Below, piece by piece: positions 3,310 through 6,291 of a stretch of DNA of 64,000 nucleotides. Position 1 is the stretch's first letter. Every line of letters starts with the position of its first letter. Source of the stretch: Physcia stellaris (Eukaryota; Ascomycota; Lecanoromycetes; Caliciales; Physciaceae). The notes under the pieces are model-generated. The model did not search any database and was not told where the DNA came from. It was given only the letters and a program-made list of their open reading frames with translations. A program made the position numbers and the translations under genes. The stretch lies in the NCBI GenBank assembly GCA_018902385.1, contig JABSSW010000011.1, positions 248,001 through 312,000 on the forward strand, read 5' to 3'.

Positions 3310-3317
3310 CTGGCATC
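3310..3317. repeat. Left target-site duplication of hAT element
   Basis: CTGGCATC lies directly before the left terminal repeat and recurs exactly at 6284-6291 directly after the right one. An 8-bp duplication is diagnostic of hAT-superfamily insertion. Confidence 0.88.
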
Positions 3318-6283
3318 TAGGGACACCGTCCCCCACGGTGACGATAAAAACGCCAAGGTAATTACGCGATAATTACTGTCATCATAGCCAACGATGACCG
3401 CTAACTATAAATAGTAGTATTCTTGATGATTAATATGCTTGACGTAGTTAATAAAATTGATGAAATGAATATGTACGAAATGCAAATCTCATTCGATGAT
3501 TCGATATTTTTTCAACTCTAAAAAAAAATTTTTGACTTTACGCAAGATTTTTGCTGTAAAATGAAAAGTTCGTTCTTTCAATTCTAATAAAATATTTAAT
3601 GATTTTGAATATCTGAATTAACAAAATAAGTGTTTCAACAATCATCATTTCAAAAATCGAAAATTATATCAAAATTACACTGAAATTTGAATGATATATT
3701 GATGATGTCTTTTCTAATAAAATTATCTAAAAAATCAATTGATCGAAACTGCGAAAATAAAAAAAATCGACATTAAAATCGATTTTACGTCATGATTTTC
3801 GCATTCTGTTTGCAAAAATCTCGAAAAACGCATATTTCGAAACATATTATGTCGAAACAATCGATTCTACTATCGTATTCATGAAAAAAAAAAGTTTTCG
3901 ATCAAAATGAAATCGTCGTCGTACGCATCAAAATTTTCGACGAAATTTTCGATGACAATTACAGACTTTGAATTCGATTTGTGAACGTTTTCGAATATCA
4001 ATTTTTGATTCGACGTCAACGTGAATCATGAAATGATCGTATAAAAATTCAATTCATCGATTTGCATTGTTTTTTTTGCACGAATTGTTTTTCACTTTTT
4101 CGATTTCAATGCTCGTCTGTTTATGTATATGAACTCAAACTTGACAACGCGTTCAAAAAGCAAACGATTTCGCGTATTGTTGTGAAAAAAATTCTGTATA
4201 AAAAAGAATCGCTCGAAGAGCACGAAATTCGTTGATGTTCTGAATACACGTTAAATCAAAATTGATAATTTGAACATATCAATATATGATTATTCTTGAA
4301 CATACACACTTATTCGAATACGACGAACATGATCATTTGTCAAAAATACAATGAATCATCTTTGCAGTTTCAAATATCGTCAAAAGCGAATAATTCACGA
4401 ACATCTTGACGTGTTTTGAAATCGAAAAAATTCTTGTTCAATTTTTTGATATTTGTATCAAAAATGACGTATTTTTTCAAAAATCGCAACATCATCGATT
4501 GAACATTCACGCTCATTTGAATATGATAATTAATCGAATGTAAATGATATGTTACTCAATGAATGTTTTTCATTTGTGTTTTCAATCGATAACGTCATAT
4601 ACTTTTCATGAATTTGTCGTGTTTATTACGTTTGAAATGAAACAAACGATTCAAATCGTTCTTGAAATCGAATTCAAATCGATTTTTCAAAAAACGTATA
4701 TGTTGTTTTATTGCTTGTCAACGAAACACAATTCGATCAAAATGAACGTGTTTCGATTCAAACATTTTTTGTTGTTCAAAAATGAATTCAAAAATTTCAA
4801 TATCGTCGTTCATTTCGTTTCAAAAATCATGATTCAATAAATCGCGTAACACGATTTTTTGAACAAAACTTTTTTCGAAATTTGAATTTATTTCAACAGT
4901 CGAATCGATGACATATCGTTTCAAAACGTTCTTATTGCGACGAAATGAATGTAAAAAATTTATCTGATAATATTTAATATCGATTTTTGAAATCAAAAGT
5001 GACTTATCTGATTATTTCAACGAATGATAACAAACAACATCATGACGTAAATTTTATTATAACAAATTCGTTGATGATTTCGTAAACACGTCGTGCATTT
5101 GTCGTTTCGATGAAAATAATTAATGATCGCATGAACTCGCTTAAACAAACGTACAAATCAGAACAATTTCGTAACGATATTTTTGACGAAAAATTGAACT
5201 TCATGACTGTCACACGAAACAAAAAAAACGTGTTTAAAAACCGAAATGATTTCGATTTTTCTTCAAATTTTTCTCATAACGTTGATTTCATCGATGCAAA
5301 AAAAATTGATATTTTCAAACTTATTATCATTTCAATACATCATCTTTTTCGCTATTCGAAAAACAAAATTCTCGATCGTGTGAAAAAAAAAAACATATTT
5401 TTCGAATCGAGATGAAAAAAAAAATATTCGAATATTTGAACAGTGAAAACATACATGCGATTTTGATTGACGTTGAAAAATTCGTCGATAATGAAATTCA
5501 AATTATCGTTGCTGTTTGTTATTGAATGAATTTGACGATGCTTTTTCTCGTAAACACGATCGAATAATGTAATAAAAATCGTCGTTTTGAAAGATGATTT
5601 GTATGTCGAATTCAAAACGTTCAAAAAAATCGTCATATTCGAATCTTCGTACAAATTCAACGATTTTTTTTTTGCAATAATTGCTCGCGTAACTAGTATA
5701 TCAAAATTGTTTTTTTTTGTTGCAATCATCTTCGCAAATGATAAAATGTTTTGACGTTTTGAAATTGAATTATTATTCGATGTTTTGTTTTCGTGCTCTC
5801 GCTTGAATTTGACGACATTGAACTCAACAACGAAAAAATGATTGACATTGTTTGCGTGTATAAAAAACGAAATACATTCGAATAAATGAATTTTCATACG
5901 CGTGATGTTTTTGAACTGATTTTTGTACAAATCGCATCAATTGCAAATAATTCGAAACATTTTTTCTGAAAAAATCTTGAATTTCTCACTGAATTGATTG
6001 TGAATCGAGAAGTCAAATACATAAATCATGATTGCAACAAAATATAATTTGTATGAATAAAGATCGAAACTGATGTATATTAATATGTAACACGAAAATT
6101 TTATTTGAAAAATGATTTGAAATGAAAATTTTGCTTGTTTATCGATGTTATCAGTGAATCAATCAAAGCTTTTGCACGTGATATGCTTGACGTTTCGTCA
6201 TGATGACGTCTTGTCATCATAGTCGTGATGACGTGACGGTAATTACCAGCATTTTCAACTTTACCGGTAATCCTTCGTCCCTA
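3318..6283 (-). mobile_element. hAT-superfamily DNA transposon, about 2.97 kb, heavily hypermutated
   Basis: The ends are inverted: TAGGGAC at 3318-3324 and GTCCCTA at 6277-6283, each followed inward by imperfectly matching sequence containing GGTAATTAC. A perfect 8-bp duplication (CTGGCATC) flanks them. Length, TAGGG-type ends and 8-bp duplication all fit hAT. The interior is strongly AT-rich, while about 100 bases at the left end and 45 at the right keep ordinary composition. A transposase remnant is readable on the minus strand at 5352-5930. The interior has an unusual mutation context: from about 3421 to 6235 I found one CC and no GG, while CpA and CpG remain common. The intact target duplication shows that no later deletion has removed either end. 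The element is dead as a coding unit. Confidence 0.87.
5352..5930 (-). pseudogene. hAT transposase remnant
   Basis: This is the only long stretch of the element whose translation still resembles a hAT transposase. It keeps the spacing of the central region of fungal hAT transposases: a fl..lN..YK motif, then a ti...L.DRVYE motif, then LNF..DE..N, then a short hydrophobic stretch ending in FHL. Where the family has Pro, Ser or Thr the copy shows Ser, Phe or Ile, and where Gly is expected it shows Asn or Asp. That is what C-to-T and G-to-A changes at CC and GG would give. The BED finger expected upstream and the dimerisation region downstream are not readable. The family call comes from memory of hAT proteins, not from an alignment. 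Confidence 0.6.
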
Positions 6284-6291
6284 CTGGCATC
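6284..6291. repeat. Right target-site duplication of hAT element
   Basis: CTGGCATC directly after the right terminal repeat, identical to 3310-3317. The predicted empty site reads ...AGGGA-CTGGCATC-ACTCG.... Confidence 0.88.

Follow-up and report, generated by a model that had tools for sequence, protein, structure and literature searches.

The window analysed here, a stretch of 64,000 nucleotides from the genome of Physcia stellaris, holds a DNA transposon flanked by two copies of the target-site duplication (TSD) CTGGCATC (Table 1). The first bases of its two termini match at 8 of 12 positions, forming short terminal inverted repeats. The original prediction had labelled the element hAT, and its 8-bp TSD and TAGGGAC/GTCCCTA ends agree with that label; transposase homology was not found in the core. 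A Pfam search with two open frames of the core gave no match, tblastn of one core open frame against the other loci fetched from the assembly (L031-L054) gave none either, and when the element was searched by tblastn with 48 hAT-related proteins, the best E value was only 0.004. Membership of hAT is therefore likely but unproven, the core lacking detectable transposase homology. The ends of the element recur at six other places in the 43.97 Mb P. stellaris assembly, where no second copy of its interior was found; for this reason the repeat partner of the element is missing, a point against a repeat-directed process.

Table 1 Features of the window element and of two further loci (positions without a locus name are those of the window).
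Feature	Position	Strand	Basis or remark
Left TSD CTGGCATC	3310..3317	.	Exact 8-bp direct repeat adjoining element end
DNA transposon, 2966 bp, hAT-like	3318..6283	.	8-bp TSD and TAGGGAC...GTCCCTA ends
Element left end, mostly unmutated, CC/GG retained	3318..3417	.	CC/GG bin counts and CpY against short relatives
Core poor in CC/GG and CT/AG	3418..6220	.	Composition, HMM borders
Element right end, unmutated	6221..6283	.	CC/GG bin counts and CpY against L049/L050
Right TSD CTGGCATC	6284..6291	.	Exact 8-bp direct repeat adjoining element end
Mutated element with about 100 bp unmutated at each end	L037:4415-8869
RID-A, intact-looking divergent RID paralog	L031:2401-4061		Gln replaces near-invariant His after PPCQ

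The core is the single CC/GG-poor segment that a two-state HMM, partly trained on the block itself and used there only for border placement, found in the window. We read its composition as resulting from C-to-T mutation of both strands, with CpC and CpT as the targets. The depleted block had been drawn at 3421-6235; the depletion is present, and the borders given by the HMM are 3418-6220, within a whole element of 3318-6283. Recounting 3421-6235 recovered one CC (at 5241) and no GG, exactly as predicted for about 2.8 kb, with 74 CT, 25 AG, 164 CA, 206 TG, 158 CG, 155 TA and 370 AT at a GC content of 28%. Relative to expectation these counts correspond to 0.02 for CC, 0 for GG, 0.52 for CT, 0.18 for AG, 1.14 for CA, 1.48 for TG and 0.42 for TA, and TpA is indeed scarcer than ApT. 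CpG, thought to lie near its expected level, is in fact about 2.9-fold over-represented (2.88-2.89), because C survives before G. Of the 64 one-kb rows of the window, the 60 that lie clear of the block hold 84-183 CC+GG apiece. Chance is not a serious option as the source of this composition, since the same signature recurs in other loci.

The CpT dinucleotides left in the core are strand-asymmetric (74 CT against 25 AG, p 9e-7), and another locus, L035, is asymmetric as well (127 CT, 222 AG). Strand-biased mutation was considered and rejected: asymmetry at p<0.02 appears in 3 of 18 other segments, always as an AG excess (orientation being arbitrary), and 15 of the 18 are without it. The asymmetry of the core is left as specific to this element.

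The direction of change was read from one pair of hAT copies, the mildly affected L034 and the heavily affected L037, together with one six-copy family. In the main alignment of the pair (2,114 positions, 84% identity), 317 of 328 differences are C>T or G>A in a single direction from L034 to L037 (190 C>T, 127 G>A), and the remaining 11 include three A>G and no T>C. Three smaller blocks contribute 88 more C>T or G>A and 7 other changes (one T>C), so that all four aligned blocks give 405 of 423; two of the smaller blocks run to the ends of the element and have a lower share of changed sites there. Sorted by the next base, the changes in the main alignment affect CpC at 112 of 112 sites and CpT at 185 of 231, against 13 of 270 for CpA and 5 of 236 for CpG (CpC versus CpT, p 3e-9; CpT versus CpA, p 1e-74; CpA versus CpG, p 0.15). 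Mutation of CpT is about even over the preceding base (A 50/63, C 36/41, G 48/65, T 51/62) and over the +2 base too. L034 itself has observed/expected values of 0.47 for GG, 0.81 for CC, 0.99 for CT and 0.89 for AG, as if it had been lightly mutated with CpC first.

In the second hAT family, six aligned copies are C/T-variable at 44 of 44 sites before C, 444 of 454 before T, 87 of 560 before A and 45 of 421 before G. The values for CpA (15.5%) and CpG (10.7%) exceed those of the first pair; all six of these copies are mutated, while L034 of the first family is only lightly so. Two heavily mutated DDE_1 copies, a pair without polarity, differ most at CpT (20/45, 37/64), with further differences at CpA and CpG; L051, the intact DDE_1 copy, could not be aligned to L052-L054 over 150 bp or more, hence no polarity for that family. 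In copy pairs below about 75% identity, CpA and CpG likewise differ, which is what old divergence would produce, and such pairs were excluded from the polarity analysis. These comparisons show that in one hAT pair CpC and CpT sites of both strands changed one way, from C to T, and that a second family has the same order. The proposed C-to-T process at CpC and CpT, with changes away from CpA and CpG, is borne out by both. No active hAT copy natively so composed, which would have spoken for an unmutated origin, was seen, and the least mutated copy, L034, is far more ordinary in composition.

The loci examined beyond the window were picked because they carry transposon domains, relatives of the window element or methyltransferases, and a fraction of the genome is not derivable from them. 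For 12 of the 13 hAT dimerisation domains detected, the 500-bp bin that holds the domain has a CC/GG ratio of 0-0.17 to expectation, the exception (L018, in L034) being milder at 0.56. Long depleted segments are present in 16 of the 24 larger loci (L035-L048, L053, L054), L052 has three short ones, and seven loci have none (L031-L034, L049-L051). The pooled affected DNA, about 102 kb, retains 0.02 of the expected CC, 0.03 of GG, 0.30 of CT and 0.35 of AG, with CA at 1.34, CG at 3.05, TA at 0.46, TpA/ApT at 0.45 and 26% GC. The affected segments sit in transposon-bearing loci, the loci having been chosen that way, and ordinary DNA is unaffected, the 60 window rows and three methyltransferase loci being normal. 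Within the loci fetched, several families of DNA transposon carry the signature in their DNA.

Stop codons inside transposon domains extend this picture. In 173 matches we counted 313 TGA, 38 TAA and 3 TAG, and a TGA excess is what mutation of CpC on the template strand predicts, since it turns TGG into TGA, whereas mutation of CpA would yield TAA or TAG. The hAT matches (13) contain 19 TGA and 2 TAA, and the DDE_1 matches (10, one of them stop-free) 44 TGA and 3 TAA. For reverse transcriptases, 150 matches scored of 527 candidates contain 250 TGA, 33 TAA and 3 TAG, with 10 matches stop-free; this indirect evidence, from stop codons alone, suggests that these families too may be affected. Two stop-free reverse-transcriptase matches, C12:60312-60788 and C5:1166521-1166997, have equal scores, and the open frames around them are 1151 and 1024 aa long; they are possibly recent or escaped copies.

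Element ends depart from this pattern. Between L034 and L037, with the right end placed 3 bp beyond the TSD-defined end, 1 of 34 CpY sites is changed less than 100 bp from either end, compared with 372 of 424 at 200 bp or more (Fisher p 5e-26); at 100-199 bp, 5 of 6 CpC and 8 of 23 CpT are changed. At the left end of the window element the successive 50-bp bins hold 10 CC/GG, then 2, then none in four more, and the right end has 7 in its last 50 bp and none in the five preceding bins. When compared with short relatives, CpY sites differ at 1 of 13 positions in the first 50 bp and at 4 of 10 and 4 of 11 in the next 50, and the last 66 bp show 0 of 11 changed against L049 and 0 of 12 against L050. 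L044 is less clear, with surviving CT/AG clustered at both ends and a 3' end without CC/GG. The 200 bp outside the three mutated elements (L037, the window element and L044) have ordinary CC/GG. Five of the six other places with window-element ends, about 0.3-0.6 kb long, also have ordinary CC/GG, and the sixth, on C5, lies in depleted DNA, age being uncontrolled in this comparison. The outer ~100 bp of element ends therefore escape mutation in the elements examined. The unmutated ends and the ordinary short relatives suggest that homology must extend over some distance before it is recognised or acted on, and that the action stops short of the ends. End-sparing in Neurospora was not found in the accessible text of two papers (PMC4858203, PMC11969663).

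To compare the measured rates with the block, ordinary DNA of the window (12001-44000, 32 kb) was mutated in silico at rounded L034/L037 rates with one random seed. For GC and ten dinucleotide classes the simulated sequence differed from the block by no more than 0.05 (simulated/block: GC.28/.28, CT/AG.37/.35, CA/TG 1.30/1.31, CG 2.84/2.89, TC/GA 1.50/1.50), and segments with less CT (L045, L048) match a higher CpT rate. Simulated CpC-only mutation, classic CpA RIP and context-free GC loss all failed to match the block, and a 5'-pyrimidine (UV/APOBEC-like) rule gave TC/GA of 0.22 and a GC dinucleotide value of 3.64, against 1.50 and 0.89 observed. Standard indices score nothing here, as had been anticipated for indices of the TpA/ApT type: among 479 overlapping windows from the window and L031-L054, none passed the stringent RIPper rule and one passed the loose rule, and none of the 182 with CC/GG below 0.2 of expectation passed either.

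The original prediction had proposed a search for RID and DIM-2 methyltransferases, and genes of both kinds are present. The DNA methylase profile matched three genes, on C3, C5 and C6. The C3 gene combines DUF7893 and methylase domains and is DIM-2-like. The C5 gene is canonically RID-like, with motifs EQT and PPCQFFSDAHT, and the C6 gene, RID-A, is a divergent RID paralog with EET and PPCQSFSPAQ. EET was discarded as a hallmark of RID-A, being found in 51 of 208 other proteins as well. The RID-A gene looks intact, because its two in-frame TGA fall in predicted introns, the first at 3561-3620 (GTATGT...CTAG), spliced as in a Heterodermia relative, and the second placed by eye. At the residue after PPCQxxSxA, Gln occupies 27 of 27 proteins of the RID-A set and His 166 of 170 others (Asn 2, Cys 1, Ser 1), in a count over 197 of 238 proteins, motif IV being unreadable in the 41 left out. 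The RID-A set comprises P0121-P0150, by match rank, and 12 of these 30 are also in the tree. This residue aligns with the stretch after PCQ in M.HhaI, a loop in contact with DNA. In a tree of 66 chosen rows and 215 columns, motif columns included, RID-A (13 rows) forms a 100/99 clade that includes Heterodermia, and the canonical RIDs of Physcia and Heterodermia fall outside it. A position near Aspergillus/Penicillium hangs on a single starred branch (95/80), the branches around it being open, and no origin is claimed.

Proteins from other assemblies bear a similar mark. A search with the L034 transposase returned 48 proteins, itself included, and two of them, P0241 and P0261, lack both Gly and Pro over 825 residues, which no other of 286 proteins does. 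Physcia loci with TGA read as Trp reach at best 57% and 56% against these two in long alignments. The pair probably reflects the same process in another species, although a close relative's elements of a different family could also explain it. P0241 has 13 Trp, which may stem from TGA codons read as Trp, and gene callers may have read TGA in this way in the assemblies of both proteins.

Taken together, these results strongly support RIP-like hypermutation with a CpC/CpT context. P. stellaris transposons have lost nearly all C before C and most C before T, and the best reading of the preference order, CpC > CpT >> CpA, CpG, is a near-inverted variant of RIP. The window block is very probably a transposon inactivated by repeat-directed, RIP-type C-to-T hypermutation in CpY context, CpC first and CpT second, and not at CpA. 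Such a process would sense homology between repeats, as RIP does, would come in a rapid burst, and would be carried out by a homolog of the RID/Masc1-type DNA methyltransferases. The likeliest agent would be the canonical RID on C5 with changed specificity or, more speculatively, RID-A on C6, and DIM-2 on C3 might add CpT mutation. A more specific proposal, that RID-A in the Physcia/Heterodermia clade is a RIP enzyme switched from CpA to CpC/CpT, with His-to-Gln as part of the switch, and that the clade runs a second, index-invisible RIP system sparing ~100 bp of repeat ends, strikes us as possible, though on balance doubtful.

Slow decay of methylcytosine could in principle yield the same TpY products without a RIP burst, if DIM-2 or another methyltransferase kept heterochromatic CpY methylated and spontaneous deamination followed; a DIM-2-like gene is present in the assembly, and a CpT preference has been described for DIM-2 in Neurospora (PMC13297926, accessible text). 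We regard this as unlikely, because all 112 CpC and 80% of CpT changed between L034 and L037 alongside only 11 other differences in 2.1 kb, where slow decay would accumulate more substitutions of other kinds, and because the borders are sharp and lie within the element, unlike those of spreading heterochromatin. Methylation without mutation, as in MIP, does not describe these elements, in which mutations are present.

Cytidine deaminases and UV damage, acting at pyrimidine dinucleotides, can both yield C-to-T changes at CC, and both depend on the 5' neighbour. An origin of this kind is very improbable given the failed 5'-pyrimidine simulation and the evenness of CpT mutation over 5' bases; neither the L034/L037 changes nor the simulation carry an APOBEC-type 5' context, and a search with the APOBEC_N profile gave no match but is uninformative, its controls being silent too. 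Hardly more credible is a native composition of the element without any mutation. No unmutated copy of the interior was found in the assembly, which would fit that account; against it, the first hAT family has the same composition alongside a less mutated copy, five of the six other places with the element ends show ordinary CC/GG at the match (the sixth, on C5, being in depleted DNA), and the rates measured in L034/L037 reproduce the block.

RIP-type hypermutation at CpY accounts for both the TGA-dominated stops and the protein predictions free of Gly and Pro. Beyond what had been predicted, CpC is attacked before CpT, the ends are spared, several DNA-transposon families are affected and a divergent RID paralog is present. 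A RIP-like process that is strong, nearly inverts the usual order and acts in loci scored as nothing by standard indices would show that the context of RIP can evolve and would supply a natural series of RID homologs for mapping the determinants of context; it also suggests that index-based RIP surveys undercount, perhaps above all in lichens. If components of ~50% and ~26% GC compose a genome of 43.3% GC, the affected share would lie at about a quarter to 30%.

RIP with CpC as the main target was not found in the open-access literature searched. CpG-type mutation in basidiomycetes takes the TpCpG form. Like the process in Physcia, the mutation of basidiomycete transposons is a C-to-T change in repeats that depends on context, but its target is CpG (PMC4352252), whereas CpG survives in Physcia. 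The P. stellaris genome paper reports 46.57 Mb and 43.32% GC, and in its accessible text 'rip' matches three times, each time in the name of RiPP peptides, while 'point mutation' is absent (PMC7513301). A survey published in 2025, covering 1,239 fungal genomes, finds a CpA preference common to RIP-like defences, and its accessible text is without 'Physcia' (PMC12543289). Another lichen fungus, Cladonia rangiformis, shares RID and DIM-2 homologs with Physcia and has RIP in AT-rich repeat compartments, with a GC peak near 16% compared with 26% for the pooled Physcia DNA; the accessible text names neither CpA, CpT nor TpA (PMC12542154).

CpT as a target of C-to-T mutation alongside RID/Masc1 genes links Physcia to Botrytis, Sclerotinia and Magnaporthe, where the CpT signature in transposons accompanies CpA and 'CpC' is absent from the accessible text (Amselem et al. 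2015, PMC4352252). A CpT bias is also reported for Colletotrichum truncatum (PMC6180176), whose CpT families have TpA/ApT of about 1.6 versus 0.45 in Physcia, and for control fungi of PMC7882544, and Monilinia has CpC-to-TpT double changes alongside CpA RIP (PMC8959702). With RIPCAL, CpT proved to be changed often in Tad1 of N. crassa, and in Stagonospora nodorum CpC/GpG was depleted alongside CpA (PMC2621366, accessible text), which makes the contrast with known RIP less simple. The published preferences are CpA>CpT>CpG>CpC for N. crassa and, as printed, 'CpA~CpG CpT>CpC' for Trichoderma reesei (PMC5496416, accessible text), in contrast to CpC>CpT>>CpA, CpG in Physcia, with CpA and CpG indistinguishable (p 0.15). 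CpA, the favoured target of RIP, is thus largely spared in Physcia (13/270 versus 112/112 for CpC), and the ~100 bp spared at element ends may set it apart from N. crassa RIP as well. C:G-to-T:A changes on both strands nevertheless stand far above all others (317/328; 405/423), and Physcia shares with N. crassa RIP the dense C-to-T mutation of transposons on both strands, the sparing of ordinary DNA and the possession of RID-like and DIM-2-like genes.
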